Part shown: positions 46,068 through 61,826 of the stretch, piece after piece
How positions within the stretch are numbered: position 1 is the stretch's first letter
Layout: each line of letters starts with the position of its first letter
Assembly: GCA_001915575.1 (NCBI GenBank)
Contig: MNQT01000016.1
Span: 1-61,918 of the forward strand
Source of the DNA: Bacteroides sp. CAG:1060_57_27
GTDB taxonomy: Bacteria; Bacteroidota; Bacteroidia; Bacteroidales; UBA932
Direction of reading: 5' to 3'
Length of the DNA: 61,918 bases
Made by a program: the position numbers and the translations under genes
Notes under the pieces: generated by a model
Told to the model about the DNA's origin: nothing
The model's database searches: none
What the model saw: only the letters and a program-made list of their open reading frames with translations

Positions 46068-46255
46068 CGATTATCCGCAATGACGCCCGGCAAGCTATGC
46101 TATGCTGCCCTGTGGTGCCTTGCCCGGCGATATACCCCCTCCGGGGGACATAAACCCTTGAGAACAGTCCCCCGGAGGGGGTATATTGCCGGACAGTCTC
46201 CGCCTTGCAGCCGCGGTGGAGCAGGTGAAGGTGCAGGCGTCATTGCGGATAATCG
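46068..46255. repeat. Nested inverted repeats (possible MITE or bidirectional terminator/cruciform)
   Basis: An outer perfect 20-bp inverted repeat (CGATTATCCGCAATGACGCC at 46068-46087; complement at 46236-46255) encloses an inner 29-bp inverted repeat with two mismatches (46121-46149 and 46167-46195, core TATACCCCCTCCGGGGGAC) around a 17-base loop. No ORF of sense is inside. It lies between the divergent dipeptidyl-peptidase and aquaporin genes. Confidence 0.85.
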
Positions 46256-53662: not shown

Positions 53663-56491
53663 ATGGCAGTACAAAGTGAAGCGGCATTGGAAGCCGGACT
53701 TATCGCCACGCTTCGGCAAATGGATTATGAATATGTCCGGATAGCCGAAGAGGACAATCTCCAAGCCAATTTCAAACGGCAGTTGGAGATTCACAACCGT
53801 AAGCGGCTGGCAGAGCACGGCCGTACCGAGTTTACGGAAGAGGAATTTGACAAGATACTCATCTACCTTGAAGGGGGCACACGTTTTGAGAAGGCAAAGA
53901 AACTCCGGGACCTTTATCCGCTTGACACAGCGGACAGCAAACGAATATGGGTAGAGTTTCTTGACTGTCAGCAATGGTGCCAGAATGAATTTCAGGTGTC
54001 CAACCAAATCACAGTGGAAGGGCGAAAGAAATGCCGCTACGATGTGACGATTCTTATAAACGGTCTGCCATTGGTGCAGATTGAGTTGAAACGCCGTGGC
54101 GTGGAACTCAAACAGGCATACGATCAGATACAGCGTTACCACAAGACATCTTTTCACGGTCTGTTTGACTACATCCAACTGTTCGTTATCTCCAACGGTG
54201 TAAACACCCGCTATTTCGCCAATAATCCGAACAGCGGTTACAAGTTTACATTCAACTGGACGGATGCCGCCAATCGTCCGTTCAATGAACTGAATATGTT
54301 TGCCGCTTTCTTTCTGGAGAAATGCACTCTCGGAAAAATCATCGGCAAATATATAGTGCTTCACGAGGGCGACAAGTGTCTCATGGTGCTTCGTCCGTAT
54401 CAGTTCTATGCCGTGGAGAAGATATTGGACAAGGTAAAGAACTCCAACGACAACGGTTATATATGGCATACCACCGGAGCAGGAAAGACATTGACTTCTT
54501 TCAAGGCAGCCCAACTTGTTTCCGAACTGGACGATGTGGACAAGGTGATGTTTGTAGTAGACCGACACGACCTCGACACGCAGACCCAATCGGAATATGA
54601 AGCGTTTGAGCCGGGTGCCGTGGACGGTACGGACAATACGGACGAACTGGTAAAAAGGTTGCAGAGCAATTCCAAGATAATCATCACGACTATCCAGAAA
54701 CTCAATGCTGCAGTCAGCGAGACGTGGTATAGTAACCGGATAGAGGAAATACGGCACTCCCGTATCGTGATGATTTTTGACGAGTGCCACAGAAGCCATT
54801 TCGGGGAAAGTCACAAGAAGATAATGAAATTCTTCGACAATGCCCAGATATTTGGCTTCACGGGTACACCTATCTTTACAGAGAATGCCGTTGACGGGCA
54901 TACTACCAAAGAGATATTCGGCAACTGTCTGCACCAGTATCTTATCAAGGATGCGATTGCCGATGAAAATGTGCTGGGTTTCCTCGTGGAGTATTATCAC
55001 GGCAACGGAGACGTGAAAAATGACGATACTCTCCGCATGGAGGAAATAGCCCGATTCATCCTCAATAATTTCAAAAAGTCAACATTTGACGGTGAGTTTG
55101 ATGCACTGTTTGCCGTGCAGTCCGTACCGATGCTTATCAGTTACTATAAGATTTTCAAGTCTCTCAAGCCGGATATCCGTATCGGAGCTGTATTCACTTA
55201 TGCTGCCAACAGCAGTCAGGACGATGAACAGACCGGGATGAATACGGGACAATTTGCAAATCAAAGCACAGGCGGAGCTGACGAACTGCAAGCCATAATG
55301 GATGATTACAATGAAATGTTCGGCACAGCGTTCACCACTGAGAACTTCCGTGCCTATTACGATGATATCAACCTGCGCATGAAAAAGAAACGGGCAGACA
55401 TGAAACCGCTTGACCTATGCCTTGTCGTGGGTATGTTCCTTACAGGCTTTGACAGCAAGAAACTCAATACACTCTATGTAGACAAGAACCTGGAGTATCA
55501 TGGATTACTGCAAGCGTTCAGCCGAACCAACCGTGTGCTGAATGAGAAAAAGCGTTTCGGCAAGATTATATGTTTCCGCGATTTGAAAAGCAATGTCGAT
55601 ACGGCCATAAAACTGTTCAGCAACTCCGATAACCCCGAGGATATTGTCCGTCCTCCGTTTGAGGAAGTGAAACGTCAATACCGGCAGTTAGCAACGGACT
55701 TCTTGCAGAAATATCCGGAGCCGGGCAGCATTGACCTGTTGCAGAGCGAAAAGGACAAGAAAGACTTTGTGCTGGCTTTCCGTGAGATCATCCGCAAGCA
55801 CGCAGAGATTCAGGTATACGAGGATTACAGCGATGAAGCTGATGATCTTGGTATGACTGAGCAGCAGTTTAACGATTATAAGAGCAAGTACCTTGATATT
55901 ACAGTCGGGTTTATCGAACCTCCGGTAGCACCTTCGGTCGTTGCTGAAGATCCTGTTTCATACGGGAATAGCCAGGGATTGGAAGATATTGATTTCTGCC
56001 TTGAACTTCTGCATAGCGACATCATCAATGTTGCCTATATCCTTGAATTGATTGCCAACCTTGATCCGTACAGCAACGATTATCCTGAGCGTCGTAAGAA
56101 CATTATTGATACGATGATTAAGGATGCCGAAATGCGTAGCAAGGCAAAGCTCATCGACGGCTTCATCCAAAAGAATGTGGATGAGGACAAGGAGAACTTC
56201 ATGGTGCATCGGCAAAAGGCGGACGGCACAAACGAACTGGAAGAACGCCTTAACCGCTATATATCGACCGAACGTGAAAAGGCTGTGAACTCTTTGGCAC
56301 AAGACGAAGGACTTTCCTCGGAAGTGCTCGACCATTATCTGAAAGAGTATGATTATCTCCAAAAAGAACAGCCTGAAATCATACAGCAGGCACTCAAGGA
56401 GAAACACCTCGGACTGATTAAGACCCGAAAGGCTCTTACGAGAATTATGGATAGGTTGGGGAATATAATAAGAACATTTAGTTGGGACTAA
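53663..56491 (+). CDS. hsdR: Type I restriction endonuclease subunit HsdR
   Basis: 942 residues. An N-terminal nuclease domain has the PD-(D/E)xK-like signature in YDVTILINGLPLVQIELKRR (near residue 140); the translocase motor follows with Walker A WHTTGAGKTLTSF, motif II MIFDECHRSHFG, motif III GFTGTPIFTENA and motif VI HGLLQAFSRTNRVLNEKKRF. A helical C-terminus contacts the methylase. Type I enzymes cut DNA at a distance after translocation. Its base use is clearly less GC-rich than the pst operon next door, suggesting acquisition. It is 5 bases before the GIY-YIG gene. Confidence 0.96.
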   Translation: MAVQSEAALEAGLIATLRQMDYEYVRIAEEDNLQANFKRQLEIHNRKRLAEHGRTEFTEEEFDKILIYLEGGTRFEKAKKLRDLYPLDTADSKRIWVEFLDCQQWCQNEFQVSNQITVEGRKKCRYDVTILINGLPLVQIELKRRGVELKQAYDQIQRYHKTSFHGLFDYIQLFVISNGVNTRYFANNPNSGYKFTFNWTDAANRPFNELNMFAAFFLEKCTLGKIIGKYIVLHEGDKCLMVLRPYQFYAVEKILDKVKNSNDNGYIWHTTGAGKTLTSFKAAQLVSELDDVDKVMFVVDRHDLDTQTQSEYEAFEPGAVDGTDNTDELVKRLQSNSKIIITTIQKLNAAVSETWYSNRIEEIRHSRIVMIFDECHRSHFGESHKKIMKFFDNAQIFGFTGTPIFTENAVDGHTTKEIFGNCLHQYLIKDAIADENVLGFLVEYYHGNGDVKNDDTLRMEEIARFILNNFKKSTFDGEFDALFAVQSVPMLISYYKIFKSLKPDIRIGAVFTYAANSSQDDEQTGMNTGQFANQSTGGADELQAIMDDYNEMFGTAFTTENFRAYYDDINLRMKKKRADMKPLDLCLVVGMFLTGFDSKKLNTLYVDKNLEYHGLLQAFSRTNRVLNEKKRFGKIICFRDLKSNVDTAIKLFSNSDNPEDIVRPPFEEVKRQYRQLATDFLQKYPEPGSIDLLQSEKDKKDFVLAFREIIRKHAEIQVYEDYSDEADDLGMTEQQFNDYKSKYLDITVGFIEPPVAPSVVAEDPVSYGNSQGLEDIDFCLELLHSDIINVAYILELIANLDPYSNDYPERRKNIIDTMIKDAEMRSKAKLIDGFIQKNVDEDKENFMVHRQKADGTNELEERLNRYISTEREKAVNSLAQDEGLSSEVLDHYLKEYDYLQKEQPEIIQQALKEKHLGLIKTRKALTRIMDRLGNIIRTFSWD

Positions 56492-56496
56492 AGGAT

Positions 56497-57196
56497 ATGG
56501 ATAAGACAAAAGAACCGGGATATGTGTATATCTTGACCAATCCAAGTTTTCGTGAGGACTGGGTAAAGATTGGTAAAAGTTCACGTCCAGTTGATGTGCG
56601 ATCAAAGGAACTCGACAATACCGCCGTGCCTTTGCCATTTGAGATATATGCAAACCATTAAGACAGTAAAGTACAATGAGGTTGAGAAACACGTCCATAA
56701 AACCATTGACCGTTTGACGGACTTACGCATCCGGCAGAATAGGGAATTTTTCAATGTCGCTCCGCAAATAGCATTGGATATTTTTTATGACATTGCAAAA
56801 ATGATAGAGGATGCCGTTGTCACTGTTTATAAAGACAACAAGCCTGTTGCAAATAATGAAAAGCCGGACGAGCATGTCGATGATCATAAGCGCACAGTCA
56901 GGCGAGGCCGCTTTAAGTTCAGCATGGTAGGTATAAAAATAGGAGAATGCATAACTTTTATGCCCACAAATACAGAGGTAAAAGTTGCCAGTGACGATTC
57001 CATTGAATACGAAGGTCGTATTTACAAGCTTTCTCCTTTTGTCGGCACTTTCATGCCAGAAGACAAGAGAAATACATCCGGAGCTTATCAAGGTGCAAAA
57101 TACTTTTCGTATAAAGGCAAAGTGTTGGATGATTTGCGTAGCGCAATGGAGAATGAAGAGACGGCATCAACAGAAATCATTTATAACATAGAATAG
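56497..57196 (+). pseudogene. GIY-YIG nuclease-like protein, frameshifted
   Basis: The first frame (56497-56661) gives 54 residues with GYVYILTNPSFREDWVKIGK, the start of a GIY-YIG/T5orf172 domain, ending EIYANH-stop. The continuation is in another frame from about 56648: TIKTVKYNEVEKHVHKTIDR, through LRIRQNREFFNVAP, to the end at 57196. Removing one A from the GCAAACC at 56650-56656 would restore EIYA-TIKTVKYNEVE. The C-terminal part (about 75-240) is not one I can name. Similar genes sit inside type I R-M loci. This is either a real inactivation or a sequencing error. Confidence 0.75.
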
Positions 57197-57204
57197 AAAA
57201 TTAT

Positions 57205-58758
57205 ATGAGCGAAGAATTACAGCAGAAACTCCGGGATCAGCTTTGGGAAGTAGCCAATAAGTTGCGCGGCAATATGTCGGCCAGTGATTTCATGTATTTC
57301 ACTTTGGGCTTCATCTTCTATAAATACCTTTCGGAGAAAATAGAGTCATATGCCAACAATGCCTTGGTGGATGACGAAGTGTCATTCAAGGAGCTGTGGA
57401 CTATGGAGGATGAAGATGCCGTCGAACTGCAGGAGGAACTGAAAAAGCAATGTCTGGAGGGTGTCGGCTACTTCATCGAACCGACTTACCTTTTCTCATC
57501 TGTAATAGACCGTATAAAGAAGAAAGAAAACATATTGCCCATTCTTGAACGCTCGTTGAAGCGTATCGAAGACAGTACTTTGGGACATGACAGTGAAGAA
57601 GATTTCGGCGGCCTGTTCTCCGATATTGACCTTGCTTCGCCTAAACTGGGCAAGACGGCAGATGACAAGAATACGCTCGTTAGTAATGTCTTGTTGGCAT
57701 TGGACGATATAAAGTTTGGCGTGGAAGCATCGGAAGAAATAGACATTCTTGGCGATGCCTATGAGTATATGATTGGCCAGTTCGCTGCTGGAGCCGGAAA
57801 GAAAGCCGGGGAGTTTTATACTCCGCAAGAGGTCAGTCAGATATTGGCAGAAATCGTGTCTATCGGTCATGCGCGGCTTCGCAATGTGTATGACCCGACT
57901 TGCGGTAGCGGCTCGTTGCTTCTTCGTGCGGCAAAGGTCGGTCACGCGGTGGATATTTACGGACAAGAGAAGAATCCGACCACTTACAACCTTGCCCGGA
58001 TGAATATGCTGCTGCACGGCATCAAGTTCAGCAACTTCAAGATTGAGAACGGCGACACATTGGAATGGGATGCCTTTGGCGATATGCAGTTTGATGCGGT
58101 AGTGGCAAATCCTCCTTTCTCCGCGGAATGGAGTGCCGCCGACAAGTTCAATAACGATGACCGTTTCAGCAAGGCCGGACGGCTTGCCCCGAAGAAAACT
58201 GCCGACTACGCCTTTATCCTCCACATGATTTACCACTTGAACGAAGGCGGTACAATGGCCTGTGTCGCTCCGCATGGTGTATTGTTCCGTGGTAATGCGG
58301 AGGGGGTAATCCGCCGCTTTCTCATTGAGAAGAAGAACTACATAGATGCTATTATCGGATTGCCTGCCAATATCTTCTATGGTACGAGCATACCGACTTG
58401 CATCCTTGTGTTGAAGAAGTGCCGCAAGGAGGATGACAACATCCTGTTTATCGACGCCAGCAAGGAGTTTGAGAAAGTCAAGACGCAAAACAAGCTCCGT
58501 CCGCAACATATCCGGAAGATTGTGGAAACATATCGTGACCGCAAGGAAGTAGAAAAGTACAGTCATCTTGCCACGCTGCAAGAGGTGGCCGACAACGACT
58601 ATAACCTGAATATCCCTCGCTATGTTGACACCTTTGAGGAAGAAGAGCCGATTGATATCAAGGCAGTAATGGCTGAAATCAAGGAACTGGAGGCCAAACG
58701 TGCCGAACTTGACAAGGAAATAGATGTGTATTTGAAAGAGTTGGGACTGGTTGAATAA
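57205..58758 (+). CDS. hsdM: Type I DNA methyltransferase subunit HsdM
   Basis: 517 residues. An N-terminal helical domain (about 1-150; LWEVANKLRGNMSASDFMYF) precedes the N6-adenine methylase with motif I YDPTCGSGSLLLRAAKVG and catalytic motif IV VVANPPFSAEWSA. The C-terminal helical tail (MAEIKELEAKRAELDKEIDV) contacts HsdS. With HsdS it methylates adenine in the target sequence and with HsdR it makes the full restriction complex. It lies 8 bases after the GIY-YIG gene. Confidence 0.97.
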   Translation: MSEELQQKLRDQLWEVANKLRGNMSASDFMYFTLGFIFYKYLSEKIESYANNALVDDEVSFKELWTMEDEDAVELQEELKKQCLEGVGYFIEPTYLFSSVIDRIKKKENILPILERSLKRIEDSTLGHDSEEDFGGLFSDIDLASPKLGKTADDKNTLVSNVLLALDDIKFGVEASEEIDILGDAYEYMIGQFAAGAGKKAGEFYTPQEVSQILAEIVSIGHARLRNVYDPTCGSGSLLLRAAKVGHAVDIYGQEKNPTTYNLARMNMLLHGIKFSNFKIENGDTLEWDAFGDMQFDAVVANPPFSAEWSAADKFNNDDRFSKAGRLAPKKTADYAFILHMIYHLNEGGTMACVAPHGVLFRGNAEGVIRRFLIEKKNYIDAIIGLPANIFYGTSIPTCILVLKKCRKEDDNILFIDASKEFEKVKTQNKLRPQHIRKIVETYRDRKEVEKYSHLATLQEVADNDYNLNIPRYVDTFEEEEPIDIKAVMAEIKELEAKRAELDKEIDVYLKELGLVE

Positions 58759-58769
58759 AATTGGGAGCA

Positions 58770-59807
58770 ATGGCAAAGCGGTTTGAAATAAGAAACAGTA
58801 CTGCAGAGTTCCTGATATTTGTGCTTGAAGGCAAAGAGGATGGGATTCAAGTGATGTATAAGGACGAAACGATTTGGGCTACGCAAAAAGCGATGGCTCA
58901 ACTATTCGATTGTTCCAGTGATAATATTGGCCTTCATTTGAAAAATATATTCGCATCGGGAGAACTTGTCAAGGATTCAGTTACCGAGAAAAACTCGGCA
59001 ACTGCTTCTGACGGGAAAAACTATCAGACCATGTTCTATAACCTTGATGCCATTATATCTGTCGGTTATAGGGTCAACTCCGTCCGGGCGACACAATTCC
59101 GCCAATGGGCAACATATGTGCTTCGTCAGTTTGCTATCCGGGGCTATGTAATAGACAAAAAGCGAATGGAAAACGGATCGTTCATCGGCGAGGACTATTT
59201 TGAACATTTGCTTGCCGAAATCAGGGAGATAAGGCTGAGTGAACGCCGTTTTTATCAGAAACTTACTGATATTTATGCCACAGCCATTGACTATAACCGT
59301 GATGCTCCGACCACAAAACTGTTCTTTAAGAAAGTCCAGAATAAAATGCACTATGCCGTACACGGTCAGACTGCCGCAGAGTTGATAGTGAACAGAGCCA
59401 ATGCAGAAAAAGAACATATGGGGCTGACTACATGGGAGAATGCTCCTGACGGGAAAATTGTAAAGACTGATGTAGGCATTGCGAAAAACTATCTGAAAGG
59501 CGTAGAACTGGAAGATATGGGACGTTTAGTCAATGCCGTGTTGGATATGGCTGAACGAATGGCACAGCGTCATATACCTATGACTATGGAAGACTGGGCA
59601 AAACGTATCGACATCATTCTTGAAGCCGGAGGGGATTCGGTTCTTCCAGATGCAGGCAAGGTTACGGCTGAGTTTGCAAAGAAATTTGCTGAAACCGAAT
59701 TTGAGAAATACCGCGTCATTCAAGACCGCTTGTTTAGCTCGGATTTTGACCGCTTTAATGACGGTGACAACTTGTTGCCGATTGAAATTGAACCTGATAA
59801 TGAATAG
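58770..59807 (+). CDS. RhuM-family protein
   Basis: 345 residues from ATG 58770. It carries the RhuM family pattern: ETIWATQKAMAQLFDCSSDN, IGLHLKNIFASGEL, GKNYQTMFYNLDAIISVGYR and ATQFRQWATYVLRQFAIRGY, with a C-terminal alpha-helical part. RhuM was first noted in a Salmonella pathogenicity island; its function is unknown, but it often lies in type I R-M operons. A role as an antirestriction or phage-related DNA-binding factor is speculation. It ends in the GTGATTATG that begins hsdS. Confidence 0.85.
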   Translation: MAKRFEIRNSTAEFLIFVLEGKEDGIQVMYKDETIWATQKAMAQLFDCSSDNIGLHLKNIFASGELVKDSVTEKNSATASDGKNYQTMFYNLDAIISVGYRVNSVRATQFRQWATYVLRQFAIRGYVIDKKRMENGSFIGEDYFEHLLAEIREIRLSERRFYQKLTDIYATAIDYNRDAPTTKLFFKKVQNKMHYAVHGQTAAELIVNRANAEKEHMGLTTWENAPDGKIVKTDVGIAKNYLKGVELEDMGRLVNAVLDMAERMAQRHIPMTMEDWAKRIDIILEAGGDSVLPDAGKVTAEFAKKFAETEFEKYRVIQDRLFSSDFDRFNDGDNLLPIEIEPDNE

Positions 59808-59812
59808 TGATT

Positions 59813-61036
59813 ATGGCAGATAATAAAGATAAGAAAGCCCTTAATGTTCCGGATAAGAGAGTGCAGAACGATGCTTGCATCAGTTCTGCCGAACGGGAGG
59901 AACAAGTCACGAAGGCGCGGCCGAAGGGAAATGTTCCGGCTTTGAGATTCCCGGAGTTTACGGATGAATGGAAAGAAGAACAGTTAGACGAAATTGCGGA
60001 ATTATCTAAAGGAGTTGGTATATCCAAAGAACAAATATCGGAAGATGGTGAGCCTTGTATTTTGTATGGTGAACTTTATACCAAATATAAATCTGAAATC
60101 ATCCGTAGAGTGGTAAGCAAAACGAACATTGAATCATCAAATCTCAAACATAGTAAACGAAATGATGTAATTATTCCCTGTTCGGGCGAAACAGCTATAG
60201 ATATAGCTGTCGCTAGGTGCATTCCTTTTGATAACATATTATTGGGAGGTGATTTGAATGTCATCCGCTTACAGAAAGATAATGGCGCGTTTATGGCCTA
60301 TCAGCTAAATGGCAAGCGGAAAATTGATATAGCCAAATTAGCACAAGGTGTATCTGTCGTACACTTATATGGAGAAAATCTGAAAACTATTAAGATTTAT
60401 AATCCATGTTTGCAGGAACAACAGCGGATTGTAAGATTGCTATCTATGCTTGATGAGCGTATCGAGGTGCAGAACAAAATCATTGAGAGGTTAGAAACCT
60501 TAATTAAGGGGATTGTTGAAACTGTTATTTCGTCGCAAAAACCTAATACATTTATAAAAAATTGCCTTGATTGTGATTCATCTACATTGCTGGAAAGTCA
60601 AGTTGCAGAAACTGGAACTTTCCCTGTTTATGGAGCAACTGGTATAAGTGGCTATACAGGAACAGCAAATGTAAACGGTGAATCAATTTTGATAATCAAA
60701 GATGGCTCAGGTGTTGGTACGGTTAAGTTTGTGACTGGAGAATACGACTACATAGGAACCCTCAATAGCTTAACAGCAAAAGATAGCTATTGCTTAAAGT
60801 ACATATACTTTGCCTTACAAGGATTTAGTTTTGAGCCATATAAAACAGGAATGGCGATACCACACATTTATTTTAAGGATTATGGTAGAGCGAAAATCTA
60901 TTGCCCTCCCTATAAGTTGCAAGCTACAATATCGCAGCAACTCACTTGCATTGAAAGCAAAATTGATGTTGAAAAACGGATATTATCTGATCCTGCGCAA
61001 CAGAAATCTTATCTGCTATCACAAATGTTTATATGA
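59813..61036 (+). CDS. hsdS: Type I specificity subunit HsdS (expressed copy)
   Basis: 407 residues from ATG 59813; a GTG at 59807 is in frame. It has an N-terminal target-recognition domain (about 35-195), a central conserved helix (QEQQRIVRLLSMLDERIEVQ; ERLETLIKGIVETV), a second recognition domain (about 245-385) and a C-terminal helix ending LLSQMFI. HsdS chooses the DNA sequence for HsdM and HsdR. The second domain begins just after a 19-bp repeat (60498-60516) that occurs inverted at 61621-61639, so this half can be exchanged with the silent copy on the minus strand. Confidence 0.93.
   Translation: MADNKDKKALNVPDKRVQNDACISSAEREEQVTKARPKGNVPALRFPEFTDEWKEEQLDEIAELSKGVGISKEQISEDGEPCILYGELYTKYKSEIIRRVVSKTNIESSNLKHSKRNDVIIPCSGETAIDIAVARCIPFDNILLGGDLNVIRLQKDNGAFMAYQLNGKRKIDIAKLAQGVSVVHLYGENLKTIKIYNPCLQEQQRIVRLLSMLDERIEVQNKIIERLETLIKGIVETVISSQKPNTFIKNCLDCDSSTLLESQVAETGTFPVYGATGISGYTGTANVNGESILIIKDGSGVGTVKFVTGEYDYIGTLNSLTAKDSYCLKYIYFALQGFSFEPYKTGMAIPHIYFKDYGRAKIYCPPYKLQATISQQLTCIESKIDVEKRILSDPAQQKSYLLSQMFI
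60498..60516 (+). repeat. Inverted repeat, hsdS copy (recombination site)
   Basis: CCTTAATTAAGGGGATTGT, coding for the LIKGI part of the central HsdS helix. The exact reverse complement is at 61621-61639. Bases just outside differ, so the shared stretch is 19 bp. Confidence 0.9.
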
Positions 61037-61643
61037 ACATCTGTGATAATAAAAACTCTTTTTGTTTCTGTAACTTCTTTTGGAATGTTATTTCATTTTC
61101 CAATTTCGCAGACAAAGTAGATAGAAATTTTGCGATTTCATCTTGTTGAGCAAAACATGGGACAGGGCATAGAATGTGATTTATGTCTTTTAGATATGCT
61201 GTTCGCATTGTTCCTTCCGTTACAATTCGTTCAACAGCTTTGGTAAATACTATTGATGTCATAAAATAATATAGAAATTCTACATTTATATTAGCTTTGG
61301 GAACGACACATAATATACCTTGTTTTGTACAAACAGGAAACAGATTTATTGATATTGCTCCAATCGTAGCACCATTGGAATAGATTATAGAATTTGAAGG
61401 AACAATCCAGGCTGATGACTTTTGTAGTCCAAGTTCTGTAATATAATCTTTGCTAGACTTAATATACTTGTTTTGCAAATCATCTATTTTTATAAATGGA
61501 ATAGTCCCGTTATCATAATATTCGGGGATTGATGTTGCAGGAGTTCCACCCTCACCAGCTCGAACATAAATTTCTTTGAATGGGACTTTCGGAAATTTAT
61601 TAGCCGTAAAAATGGAATCTACAATCCCCTTAATTAAGGACAC
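61029..61643 (-). CDS. Silent hsdS 3' half (alternative second target-recognition domain)
   Basis: 204 residues, opened only by a GTG outside the repeat, with no ribosome site or promoter obvious. It reads SLIKGIVDSIFTANKFPKVP, a target-recognition domain (VRAGEGGTPATSIPEYYDNG, GAISINLFPVCTKQGILCVV) and ends KQKEFLLSQMFI, just like the expressed HsdS C-terminus. The two genes converge, and their stops overlap at 61029-61036. Inversion across the 19-bp repeats would place this half behind the N-terminal domain of hsdS and silence the present one. As it stands it is a donor cassette, not an independent gene. Confidence 0.88.
   Translation of the reverse strand: MSLIKGIVDSIFTANKFPKVPFKEIYVRAGEGGTPATSIPEYYDNGTIPFIKIDDLQNKYIKSSKDYITELGLQKSSAWIVPSNSIIYSNGATIGAISINLFPVCTKQGILCVVPKANINVEFLYYFMTSIVFTKAVERIVTEGTMRTAYLKDINHILCPVPCFAQQDEIAKFLSTLSAKLENEITFQKKLQKQKEFLLSQMFI
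61621..61639 (-). repeat. Inverted repeat, silent copy (recombination site)
   Basis: Exact reverse complement of 60498-60516; sits at the 5' end of the silent hsdS half. The segment between the two repeats is about 1.1 kb. Confidence 0.9.
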
Positions 61644-61720
61644 TATTTTAATATTCTACTTAAGAGATATCACATTTGACAATTTAATTGAAATTTTTTT
61701 TCCCATAAGAAAGAAAATTG

Positions 61721-61728
61721 TATTTTTG
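61721..61728 (+). promoter_or_regulatory. Promoter -7 box
   Basis: TATTTTTG in an AT-rich stretch, upstream of the truncated ORF at 61752. Confidence 0.4.
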
Positions 61729-61751
61729 TGAAAAAACATAAACTCGTAAGT

Positions 61752-61826
61752 GTGAATATTATTTCGCGAAAATATTACATCGACAAGATAGAGCATTGGC
61801 TCGGAAGACAGCAGATTATTGCTTAG
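61752..61826 (+). pseudogene. N-terminal stub of an AAA+ ATPase (DUF4143 type)
   Basis: GTG start; 24 residues (NIISRKYYIDKIEHWLGRQQ, then IIA) then TAG. ATPases of this type begin with a similar KRxYYLDKIxxxLGK...IIALxGQRRVGKS, but here the reading stops before the Walker A. The rest of the gene is not found in the 90 bases to the window end. It looks like what is left after an insertion or deletion next to the R-M island. Confidence 0.45.

Follow-up and report, generated by a model that had tools for sequence, protein, structure and literature searches.

A probable inversion switch of sequence specificity in a type I restriction-modification locus of a Bacteroidales genome

Bacteroides fragilis reportedly possesses a phase-variable type I restriction-modification (RM) locus, described by Ben-Assa et al. 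in 2020 (NAR). Inverting hsdS loci are by now an established phenomenon, as passages of several papers attest (PMC5903667, PMC7394358, PMC11892184), and the paper on the phase-variable type I RM of B. fragilis is cited in passages of PMC12632263 and PMC10939037. The REBASE survey of Atack et al. (2020) found inverting type I RM loci, B. fragilis among its matches; as far as the survey's description goes, these resemble the locus reported here in their duplicated variable hsdS genes with inverted repeats (PMC7394358). The survey counted only perfect repeats that were 20 bp or longer, and its authors state that shorter repeats were missed, hence the 19-bp site described below would have been missed as well (PMC7394358). 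SpnD39III of Streptococcus pneumoniae is alike by description, with hsdS inversion, a locus-encoded recombinase and repeats of 15, 85 and 33 bp, but differs in having six alternative HsdS proteins (PMC7394358). In a defined gut community, the invertons of group 145 are described as overlapping genes for restriction subunit S, and tyrosine recombinases as being enriched in their neighbourhood, a likeness of gene content (PMC11892184).

One of the related loci collected in this study, from B. fragilis Q1F2 (L068, not necessarily the Ben-Assa locus), follows the relatives' order of hsdM, hsdS, reversed hsdS and tyrosine recombinase. It resembles our locus in its repeat at the central site of hsdS, here 45 bp long, and in a relative of the second target-recognition domain, TRD2a (56%). 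The HsdM proteins are 79% identical; our locus differs in having a rhuM-family gene before hsdS and in showing only a half cassette.

The window, that is the whole 61,918-nucleotide stretch of DNA analysed (from Bacteroides sp. CAG:1060_57_27), carries hsdR, hsdM and hsdS at one locus, which makes this a type I RM system (Table 1). The + strand order is hsdR, a small gene, hsdM, the rhuM-family gene and hsdS. Pfam Methylase_S (PF01420) is matched both by the expressed hsdS and by the silent half, and the most likely start of hsdS is the ATG at 59813, giving 407 aa, the same length as P0001, rather than the GTG at 59807. The region 53663–61643 has a GC content of 43%, as against 57% in positions 1–53455, and the window ends 3,160 bp past hsdM. 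The window is probably a complete contig, because P0002, which is listed as a protein of the window, lies on a single contig of 61,918 bases. Among 268 genomes belonging to one family, the longest matches to the neighbouring pst genes reach 73–74% identity. Between hsdR and hsdM, the small gene (56498–57196) is broken in the window by a change of frame near 56650 but open throughout (233 aa) in the relative locus L106, and it matches PADLOC PDC-S57 in its second part.

Table 1. Coordinates of the restriction-modification genes, repeat arms and predicted invertible segment in the window.
Feature	Position	Strand	Evidence
hsdR, restriction subunit, 942 aa	53663..56491	+	Pfam HSDR_N, EcoR124_C, SWI2_SNF2; NCBIfam TIGR00348, 457 bits (cut-off 284.55)
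hsdM, N6-adenine methyltransferase subunit, 517 aa	57205..58758	+	Pfam N6_Mtase, HsdM_N; NCBIfam TIGR00497, 470 bits (cut-off 242.75)
rhuM-family gene between hsdM and hsdS	58770..59807	+	Pfam PF13310; PADLOC PDC-S05
Expressed hsdS (407 aa) with TRD1, a conserved central region and TRD2a	59813..61036	+	PF01420 in two stretches; relatives
N-terminal conserved stretch of hsdS (NVPALRFPEF)	59930..59963	+	inverted-repeat site in relatives, common to their reversed full hsdS
Left arm of 19-bp inverted repeat, within hsdS (LIKGIV)	60498..60516	+	
Right arm of 19-bp inverted repeat, head of silent half	61621..61639	-	
Predicted invertible segment, 1,142 bp	60498..61639	.	in-frame products after inversion
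Silent hsdS 3' half with TRD2b, 204 aa from GTG, without 5' part	61029..61643	-	PF01420; dN/dS against L005

An earlier, sequence-only reading of this DNA claimed that a perfect 19-bp repeat lies in the middle of hsdS and, inverted, at the start of the silent half, and CCTTAATTAAGGGGATTGT is indeed exact in both arms. No third copy occurs in the window with up to two mismatches allowed. The repeat is the longest perfect inverted repeat in 59807–61700, where 2,000 first-order Markov sequences with the dinucleotide composition of that region reached a maximum of 16 bp. Outside the 19 bp the two hsdS copies are unlike, and the reading frame crosses the repeat in the same phase in each. The window holds three perfect inverted repeats of at least 16 bp, the other two being 20 bp each and located at 46.1–46.3 kb. 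These form a nested pair (46068–46087/46236–46255 and 46130–46149/46167–46186) upstream of an apparent aquaporin gene, and no other copy of 46068–46255 was found in the window or the fetched relative loci (E 1e-3).

The same reading held that both halves end in LLSQMFI with convergent, overlapping stops, and that inversion would exchange the second target-recognition domain; the first is borne out by the sequence, with stops at 61036 and 61029, and the second by computing the inversion. The predicted product reads through the joint in frame (...ERLETLIKGIVDSIFT...) to give an HsdS of 433 aa, counted from the GTG at 59807, with a different TRD2, and a 180-aa silent half is left behind. The locus thus has a variable second hsdS sequence in opposite orientation (61029–61643), sharing with hsdS an inverted repeat, and its TRD2b is unlike TRD2a (11% identical).

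As had been noted earlier, no recombinase lies in the window, here on a search that covers the recombinase family of the relatives. No integrase appears among 25 of the 53 Pfam families for the other ORFs of the window (among matches listed). The relative loci, the best 80 of 441 from an HsdM scan, usually begin with hsdM and hsdS, between which an extra gene is common; half cassettes in either orientation frequently follow, then a reversed hsdS, and last a tyrosine recombinase, some 308 aa long and oriented like hsdM. This recombinase was found downstream of hsdM in 29/30 loci whose sequence extends 9.9 kb or more past hsdM, in 32/34 with at least 8 kb and in 39/44 with at least 5 kb, leaving out L002, where it matches upstream (with L002, 40/44). 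All six recombinases tested match Pfam Phage_integrase (PF00589), as do those of L106 and L112, and four that were tested match XerA/C/D models far below the cut-offs. Their starts lie 2,374–8,304 bp past hsdM and, in 31 of the 39 loci, beyond 3,160 bp. In seven of the eight loci with a nearer recombinase, hsdS follows hsdM immediately; in the other one (L024), Ns kept the expressed hsdS from being recovered. The absence of a recombinase from the window therefore says little, since the window stops before the position it takes in 31/39 relatives and since a rhuM gene lies between hsdM and hsdS.

Other genes also occur beside the hsdS cassettes of relatives (L036, L061, L066, L046, L021, L106, L014 and L010), including Fic, RhuM, AAA_21, DUF7255, IS66 transposase and Mu-type transposase, and inversions may flip some of these intervening genes too. 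In L106, from the close relative G233, the hsdS copies carry a perfect 558-bp inverted repeat (7031–7588/9347–9904) that runs as far as the central site. The hsdS frame of this locus is broken, and its recombinase is called as an ORF of 249 aa although the tblastn match spans 308 aa.

The window ends 279 bp past the right arm of the repeat, and this tail is unrelated sequence with an apparent ATPase-like gene start, not a reversed hsdS. It begins with AT-rich DNA (27% GC), and its final 93 bp have 52% GC. Within it, 32 codons (61728–61823) weakly resemble ATPase-like starts in L122 and L123 (41%, E 0.003–0.007, 2/393 genomes), Pfam gives nothing for these 32 residues, and in our interpretation the frame stops before the expected P-loop. 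The tail gave only matches of 30–46 bp, in 6/268 genomes, which we take as chance (five of the six loci read). No match to hsdS plus flank was found in a phage collection; in plasmids its single match was partial, with 55% of the length covered at 67% identity, and the tail alone had none. Viral contigs held no exact copy of the 19-bp repeat.

Such a tail could mean that the switch is frozen or orphaned, the reversed hsdS and recombinase having been lost, with the repeat and silent half left as relics or flipped only rarely in trans. The 27% GC DNA with its truncated ATPase-like start would fit such a loss, as would a final 93 bp nearer in GC to positions 1–53455 than the 43% of 53663–61643 is. 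L017 offers a locus of this kind: its hsdS is accompanied by a reversed half and a central repeat of 18 bp, and no recombinase of the relatives' family was found in the 8.4 kb after hsdM. Of the window's own protein, the matches listed include the present form alone. However, the window stops short of where most relatives have their recombinase, and other genes and insertion sequences stand among the silent cassettes of relatives too. The arms of the repeat are moreover identical, and dN in the silent half is far below dS, hence we regard a frozen locus as unlikely. We see only a slim chance that the window holds a minimal switch with no recombinase of its own, one hsdS and one silent half served in trans by the recombinase of another inverton, as L017 may be. 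Were this true, one recombinase would couple restriction specificity to other invertible loci.

The silent half could also be the dead fragment of an hsdS duplication and the repeat a leftover of conserved central coding sequence, with no inversion at all. Some likeness is to be expected of a repeat placed in the conserved centre of HsdS, yet the DNA is identical over 19 bp and the sequences beside it do not resemble each other. The half forms an intact ORF, and against the silent half of L005, the one pair compared, dN is 0.025 and dS 0.32 over 123 codons, with 27 codons changed and only seven of those changes nonsynonymous. On this comparison the silent half looks to be under constraint and is probably used at least now and then. 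The L005 copy is a 94% relative in a silent slot that reads in the opposite direction, and TRD2b has two matches at E 1e-40 in 393 genomes of the order, G004 (91%, the L005 locus) and G476 (45%).

Both domain pairings also occur in full-length proteins among relatives, which we sampled as 240 HsdS proteins, the best 120 of 8000 scored for each of two architectures. Among the matches listed, TRD1 (87–92%) is joined to TRD2a (77–90%) in 33/240 (P0003–P0035), and TRD1 (85–92%) to TRD2b (86–91%) in 17/240 (P0121–P0137); as each set was aimed at one architecture, these counts show that both pairings exist, not how frequent they are. In Bacteroides fluxus (L018), a TRD2b relative (70%) is expressed and a TRD2a relative (55%) lies silent and reversed, whereas Paraprevotella clara (L023) has the arrangement of the window (58% and 62%), its hsdS being called in pieces. 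Judged by sequence, these orthologous loci of two species hold related domain pairs in opposite states, which further argues against a dead fragment and makes that explanation very improbable. It speaks against active switching here that the exact inverted product is absent from the best 120 of 8000 scored, its best match being 90% over 97% of the length, and among the matches listed it reaches 92% over 72% with P0142, while the present HsdS form is on six contigs; a near-identical inverted form could be hidden, because the protein database is clustered at 90%. Least credible of all is an artefact of assembly, in which a mixed or switching population gave rise to the inverted half, for although the contig stops 279 bp after the repeat, and that of L006 27 bp after its second repeat copy, hsdS with a reversed half is also found in L006 and L017, and L005 carries its 94% relative of the silent half in a silent slot, in the other direction.

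A switch acting by inversion is further supported by the sites of relatives, whose central site has a core pattern of TAAT, 3–4 bases and GG. Perfect inverted repeats of at least 14 bp at this site were counted by eye in 23 of the 39 recombinase-bearing loci (L001, L010, L012, L014, L015, L018, L021, L023, L027, L028, L030, L031, L035, L038, L039, L041, L046, L047, L050, L061, L064, L068 and L071) and were not found in the other 16 by the same count. Counting was done by eye because patterns for the central site were not strict enough and took in other sites as well, giving 28/39 and 29/39; the loose pattern gave 0/195 in Markov sequences. Some of the 23, such as L014, L027, L046 and L061, have a repeat that joins two silent cassettes and not the expressed hsdS. 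L006 has hsdS and a reversed half as in the window, with the repeat CCTTAATTAAGGGGATTCG. The last two bases of the repeat are CG in L006 and GT in the window, matching within each locus, an agreement that could result from exchange at this site. These bases differ within the locus in L018, L021 and L047, so exchange there would lie inside the shorter core.

The switch had been read as having two states. Inversion of 60498–61639 does give two products, but two is probably a minimum and probably too few, because the N-terminal stretch 59930–59963 is a repeat site in relatives, which pair it with a reversed full hsdS (repeats of at least 12 bp in 32/39 loci, by a loose pattern). The stretch has no repeat partner in the window; going by relatives, a partner would likely lie past the window end, and if a reversed hsdS exists there, more than two states are likely. 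Near the start of HsdS, an N-terminal motif is also partly repeated (59843–59860 and 59930–59947, 83% alike); it is single in L005, as if an exchange had occurred there.

An inversion switch is our preferred reading. It would depend on a Xer-like tyrosine recombinase whose gene most likely lies a little beyond the end of the contig, behind a reversed hsdS. This enzyme would act at the conserved central site, with strand exchange at the core CCTTAATTAAGGGGATT, which encodes LIKGI. The segment 60498–61639 would flip and TRD2b would take the place of TRD2a in the expressed HsdS, and through this replacement, we propose, HsdM and HsdR would recognise another bipartite sequence. We hold it likely that an adjacent Xer-like recombinase flips the segment at the central site and so swaps TRD2a for TRD2b and the recognition sequence. 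The repeat, the in-frame products, the low dN/dS of the silent half, the occurrence of both domain pairings among relatives and the place of the recombinase in their loci are what the sequences show; flipping in this strain now, an adjacent recombinase, a change of specificity and any effect on expression are what we infer. We judge the locus a real specificity switch of a known kind, and probably a working one.

What is new here is another copy, in a further Bacteroidales lineage, of a kind of switch known from Bacteroides. The switch is short and easily tested, and it illustrates how loci like it escape a search limited to repeats of 20 bp or more. In L001–L003, loci that bear the names Leyella, Bacteroides and Phocaeicola, HsdM is 97–98% identical, hence this switching RM family appears to spread horizontally between genera, and the present locus adds a Bacteroidales lineage to a switching restriction family that appears to move among them.
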